Below are positions 3,797 to 55,568 of a DNA stretch of 64,000 bases, in pieces. The position numbers and the translations under genes were made by a program. The stretch lies in the IMG/VR virus record IMGVR_UViG_3300025598_000029, positions 23,044 to 87,043 of that record. The stretch is one strand, 5' to 3'. Position 1 is the stretch's first letter, and each line of letters begins with the position of its first letter. Source of the stretch: a virus. The notes under the pieces are model-generated. The model was not told the DNA's origin. It ran no database searches and worked only from the letters and a program-made list of their open reading frames with translations.

Positions 3797-5148
3797 TGAG
3801 CCGTTTCGATGATGAGCTGATCAAGCAGGCAGACAATGCCTACCAGCAACAGGTAGGAGAGGGTAAGACAACAACTCCTCGCCAAGAACCATACAACCAA
3901 GTTGACACTATCAATCTTGACAGTGGCTTTGGTGCTCCTGAAAAGGCACCAGCTCCTGTTGATGAAGTTGCTGACTGGATTGCTAACCAACCAATGATGC
4001 GTCAAATAGATGTTCGTGACCTTGACGCTGCCGACCAAGGTGAAATCATTGGTGGGCCTGGTTCAAGTGCTGTTTACGCAGAAGGAGGACCAGTGTATGC
4101 TGGAAAGAACCCAATCGATGAAAGTCTTTACAATGTTTACAAGTCTTCACGTGAAATCCGTGATGCAATTGAAGCACAAACTGATTTTGACTTCTCTAAC
4201 CTAATTACTGCTGCTAATGATGCAGCTACTGTTCTTCGTTTCGCTAGCGCCAACGATGAAGTTAATCAAGTTGTTGGTACTGTTGCTAGTATTGTTCTTG
4301 ACATTGAGAACGACCTTGCTACTACTGGTGACTACCGCCAAGCTTCATCTGATCTAACTCAGCTTGAGAGCCTTCTAGAAGACATCAACAAGTTTGCTAC
4401 CGCTGATGGTGATACTGACGACAAGAAGTCTGAAGGCGATGCAGTTGCTGATTCAGACGACAATAAGACTGCTAAGAAGAAGTCTGAAGACGAAGACGAA
4501 GACGAAGAAGAAGAATGCAAGAATTGCAAGGGCAAAGGTTGCGACAAGTGCAAGAAGTCAAAGAAGAAAGCTTCTAACGGTAACCAAGAATCACTTCAAG
4601 TTGTAGACGTTCGCGATCTAGATGATCAAGCTGGCGTTTGGGACCGTGATGAACTCATGGCTGCTGACCACAAAACTGATGTTCTTGTGCCTGAAGATGT
4701 AAACGGTGAAGACGCCGGTTACGTACCATTCTACAATGATGGTGCTGAAACTGGTCGCACACCACAAGAAGACGAAGATCGTACCCCATGGCCTTACGAT
4801 GGCACTAACCCTGCCCTCGCTCCATACGCCGGTACAGTCGCCGCGGTACAAGCCTCACGTGAGAAGATTTTTGAAAGTCTTCAAATCGTAGAGCGTCTTG
4901 AGAAGCTTGGAATGGTCCAACACGATGACCGTGCTAAGCACATCGCAAAGTTTGAGCAAATGTCGGATGCAAAGCTTGCTGGATTCAAAGCTAGCCTCGA
5001 CATGCTCGAAGAGTCTGGGGCCCGTCAACCCCGGAGCCAGAAAGTGGCAAGTGGAAGTAATCGCTTGCCAGAAATGGGTCGGTTGACAACGGCCTCAACA
5101 GTTACTCGTCAGGACATTCAGTCTGACGATTGGCTGATGACACTTTAA
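3796..5148 (+). CDS. Probable scaffolding/head assembly protein with a DnaJ-like Cys motif
   Basis: This is a highly charged protein. It has a predicted helical stretch around residues 110-200, an acidic run just before residue 241, and then Cys241, Cys244, Cys249 and Cys252 in a CxxCxGxGCxxC arrangement like DnaJ zinc modules. The phrase DVRDLD occurs twice (about residues 74 and 273) flanking the central region, which could be protease recognition or docking sites. Its place between protease and capsid genes and its acidic, low-complexity nature fit a scaffold that fills the prohead and is later cleaved. No scaffold family can be proved by eye, so the role is inferred from context. Confidence 0.5.
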   Translation: MSRFDDELIKQADNAYQQQVGEGKTTTPRQEPYNQVDTINLDSGFGAPEKAPAPVDEVADWIANQPMMRQIDVRDLDAADQGEIIGGPGSSAVYAEGGPVYAGKNPIDESLYNVYKSSREIRDAIEAQTDFDFSNLITAANDAATVLRFASANDEVNQVVGTVASIVLDIENDLATTGDYRQASSDLTQLESLLEDINKFATADGDTDDKKSEGDAVADSDDNKTAKKKSEDEDEDEEEECKNCKGKGCDKCKKSKKKASNGNQESLQVVDVRDLDDQAGVWDRDELMAADHKTDVLVPEDVNGEDAGYVPFYNDGAETGRTPQEDEDRTPWPYDGTNPALAPYAGTVAAVQASREKIFESLQIVERLEKLGMVQHDDRAKHIAKFEQMSDAKLAGFKASLDMLEESGARQPRSQKVASGSNRLPEMGRLTTASTVTRQDIQSDDWLMTL

Positions 5149-15800: not shown

Positions 15801-16928
15801 ATGCCATTATTCTCATCGTTAAGTGACCTTGCCGCTCGTGCTTATGGACTCCTATCAGGATCTTTAGCACCTATTAGCGACCTGTTTGCAAGAACAACAT
15901 CAGGATCATTAGGAACAGCAACATCAGGACAACTTTGGGTTGCACAAACTGGTGTATGGTATGCAACGAGCGGATCAGCTACCACATCAACAGCAGCTAG
16001 TTCTTACCCATTAGCTACAATACCTTACAAAGCTAGTGCAACAATGACGTTGAAGAGTGCTTCAAACGGTACTGGAATTGCTTTTTGGTGGACAAGTACT
16101 GGTAACTGGTGGGCAGTTGTTAACAATGCTTACTCACAAAATAACATAACAAGCTATACCTGTACTGGTGGATATCCTTGCACAGGTTATACATGCGCAG
16201 GCTATGGACCAGTGTGTCAAAGCTATTACACTGTTTGTACAGGTTATGGTTACAGCAGTGCTTATGGTGATCCAAATGCTAAGGGAGCAACTACAACGTT
16301 GCCTAAGCGAAAGCGTCGTACAAAAGAAGATTCACCAAATACTCGACCCATTGATGTTCCAAAGCCGCAAAACCTTAGTTACGCACCAATTCCACCACCA
16401 TTCTTCCCACCCTTCTTTCCGCCTTTCTTCCCACCCTTTTTCCCACCATTCTTTCCACCTTTCTTTCCTCCATTCTTTCCACCGTTCTTTCCTCCGTTCT
16501 TTCCACCGTATTTCCCACCGTGCATAAGTTATGGATTAGCTTGTGGAGGATACGCTACAGGATGTACATCATATTCTTGCTCTTCTTATGGTGCTTGCGC
16601 TGGATACACAGCCAACTACACAACACAGTACTATAACCAGCTAAGCTTGCTACAATCTGTAGGTGGTACAATCACTACAATTGCAACAGGAGTTCTACAA
16701 GGGCCTTCAAATAGCACAACAGCTCAGATTAACTCTATCCAAATCGTTACCACTAATAGCAACATTACAGCAACTGCCTTTAGTGATTCTGCATTGGTAA
16801 CATCTCTGGGAACTTTGTCTAGCAATCAGACTGCTCCAACTGGTAATGTTAGTGTTGGTATTATTGATTCACCGGTTGGCGGAAGTGCCACCCAAGGTAG
16901 TACTGTAGGACCATTTACAGCGTTATAA
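15801..16928 (+). CDS. Tail protein with FFPP rod flanked by mirror-image cysteine ladders
   Basis: Residues 1-118 and 270-375 read like two halves of one beta-sandwich (LamG-like) domain, interrupted by an insert. The insert holds Cys121, 127, 132, 139 and 146, a Lys/Arg-rich patch (169-175), a rod of nine FFPP units plus YFPP (201-240), then Cys241, 248, 255, 260 and 266. The Cys spacing is 6,5,7,7 before the rod and 7,7,5,6 after it, an exact mirror, so five disulfides pairing 146-241 out to 121-266 would zip two antiparallel Tyr-rich strands. It lies directly after the giant fibre and is probably part of the adsorption apparatus. I recognise no family; function is inferred. Confidence 0.6.
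   Translation: MPLFSSLSDLAARAYGLLSGSLAPISDLFARTTSGSLGTATSGQLWVAQTGVWYATSGSATTSTAASSYPLATIPYKASATMTLKSASNGTGIAFWWTSTGNWWAVVNNAYSQNNITSYTCTGGYPCTGYTCAGYGPVCQSYYTVCTGYGYSSAYGDPNAKGATTTLPKRKRRTKEDSPNTRPIDVPKPQNLSYAPIPPPFFPPFFPPFFPPFFPPFFPPFFPPFFPPFFPPFFPPYFPPCISYGLACGGYATGCTSYSCSSYGACAGYTANYTTQYYNQLSLLQSVGGTITTIATGVLQGPSNSTTAQINSIQIVTTNSNITATAFSDSALVTSLGTLSSNQTAPTGNVSVGIIDSPVGGSATQGSTVGPFTAL
16401..16520 (+). repeat. 12-base FFPP codon repeat (10 units)
   Basis: Ten consecutive 12-base units encode nine FFPP and one YFPP. Codons vary between units (TTC/TTT and CCA/CCC/CCG/CCT mixed), so the protein pattern is conserved while the DNA has diverged. This argues for selection on the amino-acid sequence over recent slippage. 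Confidence 0.85.
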
Positions 16929-17421: not shown

Positions 17422-17742
17422 ATGAACGGACAACCAAAGCAAACGCCTTGGGAATTATATTTAGAAAATCTAAAGAATACTTCCGAAGAAACATCTGAAC
17501 AACGCCCAGCTAGACCATGGGATCTATTCAATAAAAAAATTGGTAGAGTAGAAGACGAATTAGCTAGTGAACGCCTTGCAATTTGCAAAGATTGTCCACG
17601 CATTCGTAAGTCATCCATGCTATGTAAAGAATGTGGTTGCTTTATGCCTGGAAAAGTAAAATTACCTAATGCATTCTGTCCAATAGGTAAATGGCAAGCC
17701 GTTGAACAAGAACTAGAGGTTAATGAGGAAGACGAAGAGTAA
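17422..17742 (+). CDS. Small four-cysteine zinc protein (DUF6171-like)
   Basis: The order CKDCP, then CKECGCFM, then FCPIGKW matches a small Cys-rich family that is widespread in Gram-positive bacteria and phages (often annotated DUF6171), with a probable zinc knuckle at about residues 55-90. The N-terminus is Pro/Glu-rich and the C-terminus strongly acidic. The ATG follows the upstream stop by two bases and the stop overlaps the next ATG, so it belongs to the accessory operon. No biochemical role is known to me. Confidence 0.55.
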   Translation: MNGQPKQTPWELYLENLKNTSEETSEQRPARPWDLFNKKIGRVEDELASERLAICKDCPRIRKSSMLCKECGCFMPGKVKLPNAFCPIGKWQAVEQELEVNEEDEE

Positions 17743-18422
17743 TGTCGCGTCAAATCATAAAATACGAAAGTCGTAATGGTTTTATAGATCACATGAGGCC
17801 TATGCTTTCCGTTGTACCTGATTGGTACAAAAAAACAAAAAGATGGGTAACTGACGAAAATGGTCAAGAATGGCCTGGAGTTAAACATTGCATCCCATTC
17901 CTTGAAAGCCTTACGCTCGGTTACACCATAGTTCTTGAAGAAAGTGTATATGTTCAAAGAACAGAAAACGGTGTAATTATACGTTATAATAATCCAAAAG
18001 AACCTGTCGTTAACAATAGGCCAAGTGCAGTAACTGATCCATCACCAGTCCCAGAGGGATATGAAGATGAACATTTTATTTGGTTTGCTAACATAACTGT
18101 AAGACCTCCTGATGGTTATTCATTACTTTACACACACCCATTGAATCGTTGGGATCTACCATTCTTAACAAGCAGTGCGGTGGTAGACGATTATGTAATG
18201 CCCGGTGCTAACATGTCTTTTTTTATTAAAAAAGGTTTTGAAGGTGAAATACCTAAAGGCACCCCTATAGCTCAAGTGATACCATTTAAAAGAGAAGAAT
18301 GGGTAGCTAAATCTACAAAAGGTCTTTGGGACATAGCTGATACTACTGTGAAAGCTCCTATATCTGAGTTGTTGAATGGTCATTATAGAAAAAACTTCTG
18401 GAAGAAGAAGGTGTATAAATAA
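17742..18422 (+). CDS. DUF6065-like protein, copy 1
   Basis: The sequence has PDWYKKT near the start, KHCIPFLESLTLGY, EHFIWF, the phrase PPDGYSLLYTHPLNRWDLPF, and GTPIAQVIPFKREEW. This chain of motifs is found in an uncharacterised family in T4-like cyanophages and marine bacteria (I believe DUF6065). The C-terminal half, with its GFEGEIPKGTPIAQV turn, resembles a jelly-roll of the dUTPase/cupin kind. It is a tandem paralogue of the next gene and overlaps it by one base. It may be a modification-related or surface protein; no enzyme activity can be assigned. Confidence 0.55.
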   Translation: MSRQIIKYESRNGFIDHMRPMLSVVPDWYKKTKRWVTDENGQEWPGVKHCIPFLESLTLGYTIVLEESVYVQRTENGVIIRYNNPKEPVVNNRPSAVTDPSPVPEGYEDEHFIWFANITVRPPDGYSLLYTHPLNRWDLPFLTSSAVVDDYVMPGANMSFFIKKGFEGEIPKGTPIAQVIPFKREEWVAKSTKGLWDIADTTVKAPISELLNGHYRKNFWKKKVYK

Positions 18423-19135
18423 TGTTTAAAAAGAATAATAAAAACGTACTTCATTATGAAGGCTCCCCAACCGTAGAAAAAAAGGGTATAGGAGCTATGG
18501 TTGAAATCGTACCTGATTGGTATAAAAAAACACCAAAGTTTTTAGATAATAAAGATCCAAATAACAATATGCCTGCTATGGGTCTTAAGATGTGTATACC
18601 ATTCTTAGATGCTATGACAACTGGATTTTATATGTCTTTGCCACAAGAAGTTTATGTAGAGCAAACAGAGAATGGACCATCTATCCGTTGCAAACAACAA
18701 CCAATGCCAATTAGCAATAGACCTCCAATGACTACAGACCCAATGCCATCGCCAGCTGGTCATGATGAAGAGCATTTTATTTGGCAAACTCAGTATGCTT
18801 TCCACCTTCCTGAAGGATATAGTGCAATTCTGACACACCCATTTAATAGGTTTGAACTACCATTTATAACATTTACTGGTATTGTAGACGGTGACTTTTT
18901 TATGCATGGCGGCAATATACCTTTTAGTATTAAAAAAGGCTTTGAAGGAGTTATCCCTAAAGGTACTCCAATACTGCAAATTATACCATTCAAAAGAGAA
19001 GACTGGGTAGCTAAAAAGAAAAAAGGAGTATGGAAAAGAAGCATGGAAAACCATCCCGAAAGAAGCTATGATTATCAAGTTGGTTGGTATAGAAAAAATA
19101 TATGGCGTAAAAAAACTTATAAGGTAGAAAGTTAA
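18422..19135 (+). CDS. DUF6065-like protein, copy 2
   Basis: This is a diverged paralogue of the upstream 226-residue protein, sharing PDWYKKTP, KMCIPFLDAMTTGFY, EEHFIW, PEGYSAILTHPFNRFELPF and GTPILQIIPFKREDW. The conserved phrases fall in the same order with the same spacing, so the duplication covered the whole gene. It is markedly AT-rich. Keeping two copies side by side suggests a heteromer or two related substrates. Function is unknown. Confidence 0.55.
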   Translation: MFKKNNKNVLHYEGSPTVEKKGIGAMVEIVPDWYKKTPKFLDNKDPNNNMPAMGLKMCIPFLDAMTTGFYMSLPQEVYVEQTENGPSIRCKQQPMPISNRPPMTTDPMPSPAGHDEEHFIWQTQYAFHLPEGYSAILTHPFNRFELPFITFTGIVDGDFFMHGGNIPFSIKKGFEGVIPKGTPILQIIPFKREDWVAKKKKGVWKRSMENHPERSYDYQVGWYRKNIWRKKTYKVES

Positions 19136-19407
19136 TGTTTAAGAAAAACAAAATATATAATGAAAAGCGTCGTTGGAAAACAATGGTAATCCCTAAGAAC
19201 GATGAGAACCAAACAAGGTACCTTCGTTTTACGGAATCACGCACTGCAACAAGACTGTTCATAGAAAAAGACAAGAATTACAAATTTTATGTTGTCTCTA
19301 GAGGAACTAACCCAGGTAAAGTAAAAGTAGTCGGAATTGCAACAGACATAAAGAGTGCTATCACATTATCTAACCTTGAATTGGAAAAAATCAATAAAGG
19401 TGAATAA
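19135..19407 (+). CDS. Hypothetical basic protein, 90 aa
   Basis: This is a small Lys/Arg-rich protein with alternating beta-like segments (FYVVSRGTNPGKVKVVGIATD) and a C-terminal helix. It overlaps both neighbours by one base, so it is translated within the accessory operon. I do not recognise it. It is AT-rich, like the enzyme genes that follow. Confidence 0.45.
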   Translation: MFKKNKIYNEKRRWKTMVIPKNDENQTRYLRFTESRTATRLFIEKDKNYKFYVVSRGTNPGKVKVVGIATDIKSAITLSNLELEKINKGE

Positions 19408-20111
19408 TGATTTATTCACCTGATAATAACTTTTTATTGTTAAAAAATTATAAAGTTGGTGGGAGCTCATTAGAAATAGCGTTGACCAATATAGTTCCAG
19501 AAAATGCTACTTGCACAGAACTTAAACCTTCAGAGTATGGTCATATGCCAAGAAACCATATATATGATAATATTGAACTAGAAAACCATGCTTCATATTA
19601 TGATATATGTGATATATTCGGTGAAGAAAAAATAAATAATACAATTTCTGTTGTCTTTGTAAGACACCCATATGAGATTGTAGCTTCATGGTATTTTCAT
19701 AAAATGAAAGAATATTGGGGAGAAAAAACCAATGATAATGCTGACCCATTTGAATATGGTGGCGGTTATGACTGGGATGCGTTATCTCTAAAACAAAAAG
19801 ATTATTTAAATAAAATGTTTTTCTATGGAAAAGAAACAGATTTTCGTTCTATTAATAGTACAAAATGGATATATGCACCAAATGGTGAAATACTAGTTGA
19901 TCATGTTCTACGATATGAGAATGGAATAGAAAACGAAATAAATAAAATTTTACCAATGGTTGGGCTGCCAAAGATTACAATACCTTACAAAGCAAAAAGC
20001 AAATACAAACCACAACATATTACCTATAAAAATATGTTTGGCAAACAAGAACTTGAAACTATACAAAAAGAATGGTCTTGGGAATTTGAAATCTTTGGTT
20101 ATGAGCCTTAA
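19407..20111 (+). CDS. Sulfotransferase-family enzyme
   Basis: KVGGSS at residues 16-21 corresponds to the 5'-phosphosulfate (PAPS) binding loop of sulfotransferases, and VRHPYEIVASW at 85-95 to the 3'-phosphate binding region with Arg86 and Ser94. The 234-residue length fits the family. Such enzymes move sulfate from PAPS to a hydroxyl on a sugar, lipid or tyrosine. An APS kinase-like gene, which would make PAPS, lies 1.9 kb downstream in the same operon, so the two probably form a pathway. The acceptor is unknown. The gene is strongly AT-rich (about 32% GC in one line counted), unlike the capsid genes, suggesting separate acquisition. Confidence 0.65.
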   Translation: MIYSPDNNFLLLKNYKVGGSSLEIALTNIVPENATCTELKPSEYGHMPRNHIYDNIELENHASYYDICDIFGEEKINNTISVVFVRHPYEIVASWYFHKMKEYWGEKTNDNADPFEYGGGYDWDALSLKQKDYLNKMFFYGKETDFRSINSTKWIYAPNGEILVDHVLRYENGIENEINKILPMVGLPKITIPYKAKSKYKPQHITYKNMFGKQELETIQKEWSWEFEIFGYEP

Positions 20112-22512: not shown

Positions 22513-24732
22513 ATGGCCAATAAAAAACCCAAGAATAATATTACTAGAGGGTACCGTTCAACCAATAATAAGGTCATTGAAGGTTGGACTGGTGGTGAGG
22601 GTGGACCACACCCGCCAGAATATAGTAGTAATTATAAGACTATTCTATTTAGTTATTTTGCCACGAACAAAAATGGTAAAGTACCAGAAGGTTGGAGAGG
22701 TGGTCAAGGTCCACATGTCCCACCACCTTATGTAGGACCTAAGAGTAGCTTTACTAGAGCATTCTATTCACCCAATACTGAAGCGTATGAGCTTGGTTGG
22801 AGAGGTGGCTATGGATTCCAAAAACACCTTGATTACTTTAAGAATGCCATCGCTTTGGCCACAATATTGGTTAATAACCAGTCAAAAATCGGTAGAATTA
22901 AACAAGCTTCATCTACGTCTACAAATTTAGCAAAAACCTCAAAAAGTTATATCCAATTAAGATTTGCCATTGCTCTACAAACCTCAGCAATTGTTACTAG
23001 ATACATTAAGTCAAAACTTAAATCTGCAATAGTTAATTATGTTGGTGTTATAAAGAATAGCAAGCGTTTTACAGGTATTCGTCGTGCTACCGCTAATAGC
23101 ATTGGTTACGCAAAAGTTACTAAAATCACAAGACATTTTAGAGTTTCTATAGTTAATCTTGTAAACTTTGCATTCGAAGGCCGCATCGATCGATTCTTTA
23201 GAAAAGCGATTGCTGCCTATACACAATCAGTAATTATTGTCAAACGATCTAGATTCACCCGTACTGCTAAGGCATTGCAAACCTATTTAGCAACTAGTTT
23301 AAAGCCATTTGATCAATATTACAGAAGTGCGATCGCTACTTCAACCAGACTAGTAAATTCTAGTAAAACTTTTAATAGGTTTAGAAAAAGCACTATAACA
23401 AGTATAAACATAGCAAATAGCTATAAAACAATCAAACGTATAAAACAAGCATTAGCTGAATCCACGTTCTTGGTTCGTAATATAAAATCCTACAATAATT
23501 TTAAAAGAGCGTTTGCCACCAGAGTTTCGCTTATTACATCTAAAAATTCTAACATTAGAAGCAAATTAGTTACCGTTACTAGGGTATCTCTTGTAAAGAG
23601 TAGCAGGACATATAATGCCAGAGTCCGTGCTATAGCTATCAATATTGTCAAAACTATTAAAATTGGTAGGTTTATAAGAACCGGTTCAGCTAATGCTATC
23701 AACATAGCAAATTCTTATAGAATTAATGTTCTTTTTAAAAAAGCCATTTCTATGGTTATCAACATAGCACGAGATGGAAAGATCGATCGATTCTACCGTT
23801 ATGCCATAGCTAGAACAACCAATTTGGTTACCACTACTAAACAATCTAGATTTATTAGAGTAGCTAAATCAACCCAAGTAGGCATTACCATTGCAACAAG
23901 AATTGTCGTAGCTAGACGCCTCGCAACAGCTAACCGTGCAATGCTCGTTAAAGTCAGCAAAAACTATGGCAAGAACATAAAAGTTATATTCACAGGGTTA
24001 ACCAAAAATAACAAATTATTTAGATTCACAAGAAGAGCAACGGCAGCAGTCATTAATCTTGCTACTACCAGGAAATTTTCTAGGTTCATTAGAGTTGCTA
24101 AAGTAACTGCAACTAATATTGCATTCGATGGAAAAATTGATCAATTCTATCGTTATGCGATTGCTAGAACTACAGGGCTTATTAAAACCACTAAATTATC
24201 TAGGTTCAATAGGAATGCCAACGCTAATAGAATAAACCTTGCTAGAACCAATAAACGCCGTGCTACCTATATCAAGACTCTATCCACTAATTTGAGTTTT
24301 AATATCAAATCCCATGCATACCGTAAAATTGCCAAGAATATTGTTATATTCATTGGTAAAGTTGTAAGTGGTGGAAAAGTTACACATAAGAATGCTTCAG
24401 TATTGCAGAGCGTATCAGCTACTGTAACCAAGGCAAACAACCGTAAAAAATACGCCACTGCCACGGTTAGCTATGAAATTGGTACTACCAAGGGTAGAAC
24501 TTATCTTAGAAGAGCAATTGCCACAACAGTCGGATTGGTTCGCTATGGACTCAGCCTAGTAATGAATGTAAGATCTATAGAATCTGCCAAGGTTGAGCCA
24601 GTCAACGAGGTCAATTTCTATGTTACACCTAACAACCCAGACGTTGTTGGGGAGTACACATCTGAAAATGACCAGCCTGGTGACTATTCAGAGCCTGTGA
24701 ATAACCTTGGTGAAGATGTAGTACCTACTTAA
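22513..24732 (+). CDS. Very basic 20-residue-repeat protein, 739 aa
   Basis: The N-terminal part has three copies of a GW-GG-GPH-type motif (residues 24-33, 60-69, 95-102). Residues 111 to about 620 are near-perfect 20-residue repeats, about 25 in number, with consensus x-A-I/T-A-x-S/T-x-N-I/L-A/V-x-S/T-x-K-x-x-R-F-x-R. The first eight units keep exactly 20 residues each. Small and hydrophobic residues alternate in the first half and each unit ends in Lys/Arg, giving a very high pI. This suggests a solenoid or fibrous shaft with stacked basic ladders, or a protein that binds nucleic acid or anionic cell-wall polymers. The C-terminus is acidic and Pro-rich. I recognise no named family; position argues for a fibre. 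Confidence 0.55.
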   Translation: MANKKPKNNITRGYRSTNNKVIEGWTGGEGGPHPPEYSSNYKTILFSYFATNKNGKVPEGWRGGQGPHVPPPYVGPKSSFTRAFYSPNTEAYELGWRGGYGFQKHLDYFKNAIALATILVNNQSKIGRIKQASSTSTNLAKTSKSYIQLRFAIALQTSAIVTRYIKSKLKSAIVNYVGVIKNSKRFTGIRRATANSIGYAKVTKITRHFRVSIVNLVNFAFEGRIDRFFRKAIAAYTQSVIIVKRSRFTRTAKALQTYLATSLKPFDQYYRSAIATSTRLVNSSKTFNRFRKSTITSINIANSYKTIKRIKQALAESTFLVRNIKSYNNFKRAFATRVSLITSKNSNIRSKLVTVTRVSLVKSSRTYNARVRAIAINIVKTIKIGRFIRTGSANAINIANSYRINVLFKKAISMVINIARDGKIDRFYRYAIARTTNLVTTTKQSRFIRVAKSTQVGITIATRIVVARRLATANRAMLVKVSKNYGKNIKVIFTGLTKNNKLFRFTRRATAAVINLATTRKFSRFIRVAKVTATNIAFDGKIDQFYRYAIARTTGLIKTTKLSRFNRNANANRINLARTNKRRATYIKTLSTNLSFNIKSHAYRKIAKNIVIFIGKVVSGGKVTHKNASVLQSVSATVTKANNRKKYATATVSYEIGTTKGRTYLRRAIATTVGLVRYGLSLVMNVRSIESAKVEPVNEVNFYVTPNNPDVVGEYTSENDQPGDYSEPVNNLGEDVVPT
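22843..24400 (+). repeat. 60-base coding repeats in the basic repeat protein
   Basis: About 25 units of 60 bases encode the 20-residue repeat. Some units are close copies: those containing GKIDRFYRYAIARTT (near 23,780) and GKIDQFYRYAIARTT (near 24,130), and the related GRIDRFFRKAIA unit (near 23,180), share the word GATCGATTC or a near match. Most others are diverged at DNA level. A few units are one or two residues longer or shorter. Confidence 0.7.
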
Positions 24733-53605: not shown

Positions 53606-54297
53606 AAATTGGCTTAGTAATTCCTGTTCTTAATAATTTTGATCAAGCAATAGATATGATCTATAGTGCTAATAGTGAGCATAATGTAAAGTTTTATATC
53701 CAACCACAATACCGTTATCAAGTTCCATTAGCTAAAGCATGGAATACTGGTATCAAGAATGCAATTACTGATGGGTGTGATGTAATCATTGTAAGCAATG
53801 ATGATGTTCTATTTTCTGAAAAGACTATAGATTATTTAGCTCGTGAAACTAAAGCAATGCCCGATGATTATGTAATGGCATTCCCAGTAGACATGTTTGA
53901 TGCTTTAAGTGACCCATCACAAATCTTATGGGATGATGAAATAGTTGGCGATGTTTCATACGCTGTTGAAGATCAAAGTTACGCTTGTTTTGCAATACGA
54001 CCAGACTTTTTTGAAAAGTGTGGAACGTTTGATGAGAATTTTGATCCAGCTTGGTGGGAAGATACTGATATGAAATATCGTATCAAGTTGCTTGGATACA
54101 AAACTATACAAACAAGCATCCCTTACGTGCATATTAGACACCAGACTACAAAAAAACTCACTCAACCTCTTAATTCGTTGAAGAGCGGTCAGTATTATGA
54201 AAAAAAGTGGGGAAGTACTCGTAAAGACTTGAAAGAGGTCTATGCTAAGCCCTATAATGATCCTAATATGAGTCCAAGAGAATGGAAGAATTCATGA
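53602..54297 (+). CDS. Family 2-type glycosyltransferase (GT-A)
   Basis: IGLVIPVLNNFDQAIDMIYS opens a GT-A Rossmann fold, VIIVSNDDVLFSE at about 60-73 carries the Asp pair that binds metal and sugar nucleotide, and FDENFDPAWWEDTDMKYRIKLLGYK is the acceptor-side helix typical of GT2 enzymes. It is the first of three glycosyltransferase genes that overlap one another, so a multi-sugar modification is likely. The acceptor may be phage DNA bases, a virion protein or host wall polymers; sequence does not say. Confidence 0.7.
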   Translation: MKIGLVIPVLNNFDQAIDMIYSANSEHNVKFYIQPQYRYQVPLAKAWNTGIKNAITDGCDVIIVSNDDVLFSEKTIDYLARETKAMPDDYVMAFPVDMFDALSDPSQILWDDEIVGDVSYAVEDQSYACFAIRPDFFEKCGTFDENFDPAWWEDTDMKYRIKLLGYKTIQTSIPYVHIRHQTTKKLTQPLNSLKSGQYYEKKWGSTRKDLKEVYAKPYNDPNMSPREWKNS

Positions 54298-55568
54298 GCA
54301 AGATTAAGGTACTAGCGTGGGGTGACTATGCTTGTAGCACAGGGTTTGGTACCGTGATGAAAAATATCATGGGAGAACTGTACAAGACTGGCAGCTATGA
54401 CATTGACGTAGTTGGTGTTAATTATGATGGTGGGCCTTACGATACAACTCTTTGGCCTGGTCGCCTATGGCCTGCTATTAGTGCTTTACGTACACAAGGA
54501 CCATACGGAGATGTTTTTGGTCGTCAAGTGTTCCTAGACCTCCTTGCTCAAGGCGATTATGACATCGTATTTATTGTTCAAGATACGTTTATTGTATTGG
54601 ATATTGTTCCTCAAATTCTTGAATTGCAACGTACTAAGCCAAATACGTTCTCGACTATTTACTACTATCCATTCGATTGTGCTCCACGTGAAGAATGGGT
54701 CAACCAATGTGTATCTAGTTTTGACTTCCCTGTTGCTTATACTGAGTACGCAAAGAACGAAAGCCGTAAAGTAATTGGTAACATTGCTGATAAGCAAGAT
54801 GTTATTTACCATGGAACCAATACTAAAGACTTCTTTCCACTATCACCAGAAGAAAAGAAACAAGCTAAAAGCATGATCTTCCCTATGCTTCAAGATAAAT
54901 TTTTGATTACGAATGTTAATCGTAACCAAGGTCGCAAAGATGTTTCAAGAAGTCTTATGATCCTTAAAGAATTACGCAATATGGGAGTAGAGGATGCGTT
55001 CCTTTACATGCATATGCAAGAAAAAGACTTTGGTGGAAGTATTCTTGAAATGGCTCGTGCACTTGGGCTAGATCCAAATAAAGATTTTACTGTACCAGAC
55101 CCAAGGCAATTTGGTGCACACAGCGGATTCCCAATTGAATTCCTTAACCAAATCTACAACGCTAGCGATGTTTACCTTACCACTACTCACGGTGAAGGTT
55201 GGGGCCTAAGTATCACAGAAGCAATGTCTACTAAGACACCTGTTGTTGCTCCTGATAATACATCAGTCCCTGAAATTCTTGGCGATGACCGTGGTTGGAG
55301 AATCCCTAGTGGGCACACCCCATCTCATTGGATTATTAAAGATAATGATAATGAACGTATGCGTCCATTAATGAGCGTTGAAGATGCTGCTAAGACTATT
55401 AAGCACATTATGGATAATCCAAAGGAAGCTGCAGAACGTGCAGAGAAAGCCTATGAATGGGCATCTACAAACACTTGGGAAGCCATTGGTAAGCAATGGA
55501 TGAATGTATTTAATCGTGCTACCAATAAAGCTAAGATGGCACGAAAACTTAAGGAACAGGCAAAGTGA
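54294..55568 (+). CDS. Family 4-type glycosyltransferase (GT-B)
   Basis: This 424-residue protein has two Rossmann lobes. The C-terminal lobe shows FLITNVNRNQGRKDVSRSLMILKEL, then YNASDVYLTTTHGEGWGLSITEAMSTKTPVVAP with the conserved E-x7-E region (GEGWGLSITEAM) of GT4 retaining enzymes. GGAAG 7 bases before the ATG at 54294 fixes the start, overlapping the upstream gene by 4 bases. It acts with its two glycosyltransferase neighbours. Confidence 0.75.
   Translation: MSKIKVLAWGDYACSTGFGTVMKNIMGELYKTGSYDIDVVGVNYDGGPYDTTLWPGRLWPAISALRTQGPYGDVFGRQVFLDLLAQGDYDIVFIVQDTFIVLDIVPQILELQRTKPNTFSTIYYYPFDCAPREEWVNQCVSSFDFPVAYTEYAKNESRKVIGNIADKQDVIYHGTNTKDFFPLSPEEKKQAKSMIFPMLQDKFLITNVNRNQGRKDVSRSLMILKELRNMGVEDAFLYMHMQEKDFGGSILEMARALGLDPNKDFTVPDPRQFGAHSGFPIEFLNQIYNASDVYLTTTHGEGWGLSITEAMSTKTPVVAPDNTSVPEILGDDRGWRIPSGHTPSHWIIKDNDNERMRPLMSVEDAAKTIKHIMDNPKEAAERAEKAYEWASTNTWEAIGKQWMNVFNRATNKAKMARKLKEQAK

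Follow-up and report, generated by a model that had tools for sequence, protein, structure and literature searches.

The window analysed here is a 64,000-nucleotide stretch (positions 23,044 to 87,043) of the IMG/VR virus record IMGVR_UViG_3300025598_000029, which comprises 87,043 bases. The window encodes a portal, a head protease, a major head protein, a tail sheath and baseplate genes, and, between the head protein and the sheath, a 375-residue protein with ten cysteines. The parts of this protein are listed in Table 1. It belongs to a family in which a constant scaffold, predicted to be lectin-like, carries exchangeable cysteine-rich inserts, and a mirrored ladder of cysteines in these inserts is supported statistically and family-wide by the sequences.

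The cysteine gaps of the window protein are 6,5,7,7, then 95, then 7,7,5,6. The candidate pairs 146–241, 139–248, 132–255, 127–260 and 121–266 each sum to 387, which corresponds to a perfect antiparallel register. Nine FFPP units occupy residues 201–233 and a single YFPP follows at residue 237. An earlier interpretation made from the letters of the DNA alone (the sequence-only reading) had described the exact ten-cysteine mirror and the nine FFPP and one YFPP units, and both descriptions are confirmed. For this protein taken singly, the mirror has a probability of 0.029 (12 mirror images among the 420 distinct arrangements of the eight side gaps), which is mildly surprising and proves little by itself; the argument gains its weight from the wider family, in which even cysteine counts and mirrored gaps occur again and again. 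A DNA palindrome as the origin of the mirror was ruled out: no inverted repeat of at least 14 bases was detected in the gene, and the sole repeat family detected in its DNA is the 12-nucleotide rod unit.

An identical protein is encoded at six loci (L132–L137). The two near relatives, L138 and L139 (= L003), share 91–94% identity with the window protein in the scaffold and keep all ten cysteines, with the tip linker as the fastest-changing part (residues 148–200 are 87% identical to L138 and 51% to L139). Retention of the symmetric spacing among relatives, on which the sequence-only reading had staked its proposal, is exact in L138 but off by one residue in L139, where the C-side gaps are 7,8,5,6.

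Table 1. Parts of the cysteine-insert gene and its upstream neighbour (window positions).
Feature	Position	Strand	Basis
Repetitive fibre-like protein, upstream gene, 1997 residues	9782..15775	+	Weak matches: tail needle, E 0.016; YadA head, below cut-off at E 0.0086
Cysteine-insert gene, whole, 375 residues	15801..16928	+	Open reading frame
N-half of putative lectin-like β-sandwich scaffold, residues 22–118, motif GIAFWWTSTGNWWA	15864..16154	+	Conserved across family; AlphaFold block means 82–96
N-side cysteine ladder, residues 121–146 (Cys 121, 127, 132, 139, 146), Tyr/Gly-rich	16161..16238	+	Sequence
Tip loop, residues 147–200: Tyr/Gly start, basic KRKRR stretch, proline-rich linker	16239..16400	+	Fastest-changing part
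FFPP rod, residues 201–240, nine FFPP and one YFPP, adjoining Cys241	16401..16520	+	Sequence
C-side cysteine ladder, residues 241–266 (Cys 241, 248, 255, 260, 266)	16521..16598	+	Sequence
C-half of scaffold, residues 268–375; strand 268–287 is the partner end of the insert	16602..16925	+	Family alignments, AlphaFold

A constant scaffold with exchangeable inserts

The first relatives recovered included proteins that match the window protein only outside the rod and have quite different cysteine-rich middles. Aligned, the relatives share an N-terminal half around G.A[FL]W[VW]T...NWW and a C-terminal half ending in a GII..P / QG.T.DNF-like stretch, and this one pair of halves flanks very different inserts. 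IMG/VR was scanned with N-half alignments, including subfamily alignments, and the best 80 of 106, 80 of 118, 21 of 21 and 80 of 83 relatives were kept. Hidden Markov models (HMMs) of the two scaffold halves were built once and then reused unchanged on hold-out loci. Among the relatives kept, the first set comprises 65 distinct proteins with both halves in 34 clusters (60% identity), and the hold-out scans added 50 further distinct proteins, of which 45 fall into 20 new clusters, giving 115 distinct proteins in 54 clusters. Seventeen frames with the N-half only were excluded from the first set (contig ends; the short open reading frame (ORF) L164/L236; and L160, L163, L228 and L230, whose halves lie in different frames), as were six N-half-only loci (L292, L310, L311, L321, L327 and L358) and L364, with neither half, from the hold-out. 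In L160 and L163 (L228, L230), near locus positions 4413–4471, the two halves occupy different frames that overlap at the same place in two contigs; sequencing error, decay or a programmed frameshift may each account for this and are indistinguishable.

Inserts of the 115 proteins are 64 to 400 residues long and contain 1900 of the 1918 cysteines, up to 42 per protein (2 to 21 pairs). The most frequent insert residues are S, T, G, C, Y and N. The 261-residue insert of L312, rich in Tyr, Asn, Thr and Gly, lacks cysteine altogether; inserts without disulfides thus also occur on the scaffold.

The FFPP repeat is found in three of the 115 members, each from the lineage of the window protein, and is a module separate from the scaffold and ladder plan. 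The sequence-only reading had made the rod the presented tip of the stalk; this does not hold as a general feature, and in the window protein itself the rod sits on one side of the tip loop, immediately before Cys241. As the defining feature of the family FFPP was likewise rejected, since rods are widespread: at least 120 (FFPP)n stretches were found in viral contigs. Among the 121 rod-bearing frames listed, matching five-and-five cysteine gaps were seen (by eye, with no mirror statistic) only in the window lineage. In the rod-bearing proteins that were read (within L004–L129, e.g. L008:2115-3353, L053:2140-3858 and L078:3560-6478), the rods join fn3-like or PASTA-like parts to small cysteine-rich tails or to Hint/intein-like C-terminal parts. 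A Pfam scan of six such proteins gave fn3 above the cut-off in two, and fn3, PASTA and Hint/intein-like matches below it in the others.

The window protein has no Pfam, PHROGs or PDB sequence match at E≤1, in keeping with the statement of the sequence-only reading that no described fold with this pattern was known. A PDB profile search with it gave no significant match (best E 0.062), and Pfam none in five family proteins scanned. PHROGs matched two relatives weakly: phrog_36019 (unknown function) in L009 at residues 6–52, outside the scaffold (E 3.6e-4), and phrog_2645 (major tail protein) in L008 at residues 318–359 (E 0.031). No match was obtained among 50,697 phage records by tblastn with the window protein (P0001), L009, L008, L157, L185 and L162, or among the phage records by blastn with 1000 bases of L388. 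No relative was among the 55 and 6 pattern matches from two scans of genome contigs, and the scaffold HMMs had no significant match in the structural regions of phages E3 and Myrna.

Structures were predicted with AlphaFold for the window protein, run with 26 relatives, and for L157. The window model contains a sandwich with block-mean confidence of 69–96 (mostly >80) at residues 21–120 and 271–375, from which long strands (103–122 and 268–287) lead into the insert; L157 is likewise a confident sandwich with long strands at 102–116 and 187–201 leading into the insert. Blocks between residues 121 and 270 of the window model have means of only 31–56. The inserts have hardly any alignment depth, because they have few relatives. 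In the models, the two long base strands agree with a two-armed start of the insert, and the pairing of rungs within it is suggested by the statistics given below.

Foldseek with the whole window model gave no match at E≤0.001 (best E 0.12), perhaps as a result of the insert splitting the domain. A second look at the Foldseek list with VIA-align, a comparison confined to the folds on that list, placed the predicted model closest to CBM66 (4b1l; Z 16.3, 149 aligned residues, root mean square deviation (rmsd) 2.7), and also close to a baseplate chain of phage Douge (8zdo_a; Z 14.2, 169 aligned residues, rmsd 3.7) and to galactocerebrosidase, GH43 and legume lectin domains. The 50 best rows are lectin-like and glycosidase domains. 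By this comparison of the predicted model, residues ~22–118 and ~268–375 would form one lectin-like (CBM66/concanavalin A-like) β-sandwich, and positions 16158–16604 are predicted to be almost exactly a single loop insertion within that domain. The halves of the domain flank the insert, and the scaffold alone would therefore bring together the ends of both cysteine segments. The sequence-only reading had assigned a hairpin stalk to this region; its extent stands as almost exactly one loop insert, but the flanking lectin-like halves had been overlooked.

Number and order of the insert cysteines

If the insert cysteines are joined by intrachain disulfides, an even number of them is expected. All 65 first-set proteins (34/34 clusters) have an even number, as do all 50 new proteins of the hold-out (20/20 new clusters, L312 with its zero cysteines being uninformative), and thus 115 of 115 overall, one of them with zero. 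As a control, ten other residues gave even counts in 14 to 19 of the 34 cluster representatives. Parity was also even in 27 of 27 groups when the first-set inserts were grouped by insert-to-insert similarity (40% identity, half length); looser grouping merged them into just four or three groups, a number too small to be informative. Within multi-member clusters the cysteine number varies in 13 of 27, always by even steps (e.g. 4/6, 22/24, 30/34 and 38/42). An initial count over whole proteins gave 48 even of 52, the odd ones (L153, L208, L209 and L211) having cysteines outside the insert. Restriction to the insert, with L146, L160, L163 and L164 omitted (no full C-half), gave 48 of 48; the insert was afterwards redefined by HMM and parity recounted on new loci. 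Among scaffold-free FFPP proteins that have four or more cysteines, 21 of 26 are also even, and paired cysteines may therefore be common in such proteins.

The mirror order was tested by holding the centre gap fixed and shuffling the remaining gaps, with the results combined over clusters by the Fisher method; an earlier test that also shuffled the centre gap was more favourable (Fisher 4e-11), and the stricter version is used here. The test covered 52 of the 54 clusters, including that of the window protein, the clusters of L006 and L312 having too few gaps. Without the window cluster, mirror order is in excess in the 32 first-set clusters (Fisher p 1.6e-5, direct-order control 1), in the 19 hold-out clusters (2.8e-7, control 0.18) and in all 51 together (nominal 9e-11). 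Direct-repeat order as the alternative arrangement was rejected (Fisher 0.98 over the 51 clusters). The mirror is individually significant (p<0.05) in 15 of the 51 clusters, and direct order in two.

By eye the mirror is clear in L153 (7,7,6,5,7,5 |16| 5,7,5,5,7,7), in L195 (12,12,11 |20| 11,12,12), which has too few gaps for significance in the strict test (p 0.20), and in L388 (2,4,5,5,5,7,5,5 |11| 5,5,7,5,5,5,7,3). The L388 insert has nine plus nine cysteines, is almost palindromic, is built of CTGYGC-type units and has the tip VFYNRYPPYA.

Several inserts have unequal strands in register, as expected for a ladder that grows by one cysteine per arm. In L184 a strand with a nine-residue unit (NPYNPC) stands opposite one with a seven-residue unit (GGNC), and the two block types swap sides within one rung of each other. 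Its gaps, read from the outside in, are 9 9 9 7 7 7 7 7 7 12 7 7 7 10 7 7 8 6 on the left and 7 7 7 6 9 9 9 9 9 14 9 9 9 12 9 9 9 1 on the right, with the irregular gaps 12/14 and 10/12 at mirrored rungs. L270 has the same nine-versus-seven plan, with irregular gaps of 14/15 at another rung. A modal-sum test, devised post hoc after inspection of L184, gave p 0.0001 for L184 and 0.0002 for L270. The cysteines on either side of the shared tip number 19/19 in L184, 15/15 in L270 and 22/20 in L283, a relative of L184. L157, L188 and L289 have a CYQT strand on the N-terminal side and a CNPY strand on the C-terminal side, an arrangement that is reversed in L140.

Genomic setting

The capsid protein is 62–65% identical to its counterparts in the best-listed records, which belong to Rhodococcus phage E3 and to Mycobacterium phages, Phabba and Myrna among them, and 196 of 216 records matched are Mycobacterium phages. 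The tail sheath has weak matches to the same phage groups (27% identity in the best-listed). Because of these capsid matches, and more weakly those of the sheath, an actinobacterial host is likely.

Between head protein and sheath, the window has the fibre-like gene of 1997 residues and, 25 bases on, the cysteine-insert gene. The corresponding interval of E3 contains tail-fibre, structural, head-decoration and Hep_Hag genes, and that of Myrna a head-decoration gene annotated as putative tail fibre among unnamed genes. Upstream neighbours of ten relatives, from 10 of the 34 clusters and hand-picked with a preference for fibre-like sequences, matched tail-category PHROGs in seven cases and other virion-structure families in two, with one having no match. 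In L162, L169, L180 and L290 the longest nearby upstream ORF is one that we take to resemble a glycosyltransferase, not a fibre.

Elsewhere in the window, positions 19407–20111 match a galactose-3-O-sulfotransferase PHROG (E 4.5e-6) and positions 54282–55568 a glycosyltransferase PHROG (E 1.7e-45). The adjacent genes at 17742–18422 and 18422–19135, downstream of the cysteine-insert gene, both match phrog_7084 (unknown function) and are likely a tandem duplication. A search of the virus record, which may be a fragment, yielded neither thioredoxin nor glutaredoxin.

Proposed role and relation to known systems

The favoured reading, to which a probability of roughly 0.68 is given, is that of an adhesin on the virion surface of a contractile-tailed phage (a myovirus) whose head is related to those of actinobacterial phages, in which a lectin scaffold displays a disulfide-laddered hairpin with a variable tip. 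The lectin-like sandwich would be the constant scaffold, on the tail or on a fibre, with the insert in one loop between its two long strands. Disulfides between the mirror-placed cysteines would zip the two arms into a stiff hairpin stalk, with a variable tip at its end that would contact the host; in the window protein this tip would be the basic, proline-rich loop with the FFPP rod. In relatives the stalk would be swapped, lengthened or shortened by cysteine pairs. The insert boundaries, the parity, the mirrored gaps and the faster change of the tip against two near relatives were computed from the sequences, and the scaffold fold was predicted; oxidation of the cysteines in the virion, rung-by-rung pairing, the virion location and the host-binding role are steps that we infer.

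A number of points weigh against this reading. The pairing of cysteine i with cysteine n+1-i, as proposed by the sequence-only reading, agrees with the parity, the mirrored spacing and the balanced counts round the tip, but it is not seen in the AlphaFold models: the structure prediction suggested there as a check leaves the cysteine arms mostly below 50 in predicted local distance difference test (pLDDT) score for both the window protein and L157, and rungs are not visible. Parity was restricted to the insert only after the whole-protein count had given 48 of 52. The Fisher values are nominal because the clusters are related, and the close relative L139 departs from the exact mirror. The modal-sum test gave p<0.05 in just three of the 16 inserts tried (L184, L270 and L157), and L283 reached p 0.06 (second control 0.30). 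Many gaps are odd or unequal between the sides and some arms are Pro/Gly-rich, so that the arms are not a textbook β-ribbon. The tail or virion place and the binding of a host are suggested by the neighbours and the fold, and the neighbours were a selected sample. Finally, virions are assembled in a reducing cytoplasm; the disulfides would form after lysis.

Further points of this kind favour an alternative in which neighbouring cysteines pair locally to give small disulfide knots in series, and the mirror of the window protein is a coincidence of its CxxY-type repeat. No mirror is detectable at p<0.05 in 36 of the 51 other clusters, local units that repeat evenly, for example C-(11)-C, occur in several members, and L162, L172 and L170, with no detectable mirror, resemble tandem local units and may use local pairs. 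Local pairing predicts even parity equally well, and the window mirror taken singly reaches just p 0.029. It does not predict, however, the recurrence of the mirror excess in the hold-out, where direct order shows none, nor the rung-by-rung match of unequal repeats in L184 and L270, nor equal cysteine numbers round the tip, and we regard it as unlikely.

The inserts may otherwise be disordered Tyr/Gly/Ser/Cys-rich spacers that cross-link subunits, by intermolecular disulfides or otherwise, to harden a fibre. Their low AlphaFold confidence and their composition fit such a spacer, yet intermolecular pairing needs no even number per chain and leaves the mirror order unexplained, which makes this explanation highly improbable. 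Less probable still is the binding of metal (zinc, iron-sulfur or copper) at sites stacked along the insert, for which short CxxC and CxC spacings and one chance-level Fer4_2 match (L008, E 0.26) could be cited. The cysteine number is a multiple of four in 16 of the 34 cluster representatives and not in the other 18, which disfavours Cys4 metal sites; the window protein, with ten, does not have the sets of four of zinc or iron-sulfur Cys4 domains. Histidine makes up 0.3% of insert residues in the representatives, and the five family proteins scanned have no significant metal-domain match.

Phage adhesins with a lectin fold are a known kind, and the variable, mirror-laddered insert appears new, because it is unnamed by Pfam and PHROGs in the members scanned and undescribed in the open literature searched. 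In that literature, covered by titles and abstract openings and with subscription papers and preprints mostly outside its scope, mirror-spaced sets of 2–21 cysteine pairs in a swapped loop are undescribed; the available part of a pelagimyophage paper (PMC7029224) has no mention of cysteine. The ladder has a fair chance of being a new class of structure. The odds are about even for the broader proposal of an undescribed phage display architecture, in which a constant lectin scaffold carries a variable hairpin that grows by cysteine rungs on each arm and each lineage grips its host with its own zipped arm and tip, as a counterpart of the stalk-and-knob antibody loop. If true, uncultured phages would own an evolvable, disulfide-armoured reach module whose disulfide map is predictable from the sequence alone and testable on a single purified protein. 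Such a module would offer a scaffold for the display of stiff variable loops and a means of flagging probable host-recognition genes in phages from metagenomes, and it would raise the question of how and where the protein becomes oxidised.

Theta-defensins and other cystine-ladder β-hairpin peptides have cross-strand disulfide rungs between two antiparallel strands, with few rungs and in short peptides. Five rungs are predicted for the window protein and up to 21 pairs in the family, inside a loop of a large protein; to our knowledge, the predicted phage ladders would be longer than any known cystine ladder.

The likeness to CBM66 (4B1L) and to the Douge module is that of a lectin-like sandwich in structure comparison, shared with Douge also in the phage baseplate setting. 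Chain 8zdo_a (PDB 8ZDO, 311 residues) is probably Douge BppU, judging from its length and the aligned range of 110–308. According to the available part of its description, the carbohydrate-binding module of BppU spans residues 116–311 and binds the host surface and host glycan fragments, and a long cysteine insert goes unmentioned there (PMC13033339). The window protein, for its part, is without a sequence match at E≤1 in Pfam, PHROGs or the PDB.

Bovine antibodies with an ultralong third heavy-chain complementarity-determining region (CDR-H3) may be the closest working analogue, with no homology claimed. Their scaffold is an immunoglobulin fold, whereas the phage scaffold is predicted to be lectin-like. 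In the accessible parts of the literature, the bovine loop is Tyr/Gly/Ser/Cys-rich with a bias to even cysteine numbers (PMC7366855; further papers on these antibodies are PMC5994613, PMC8602281 and PMC7498065). Both systems would thus combine a sandwich with a loop of similar composition and an even-cysteine bias. In the phage inserts, the cysteines, up to 42, lie along the arms themselves, and the variation is found between phage lineages, not through somatic mutation as in the bovine CDR-H3.
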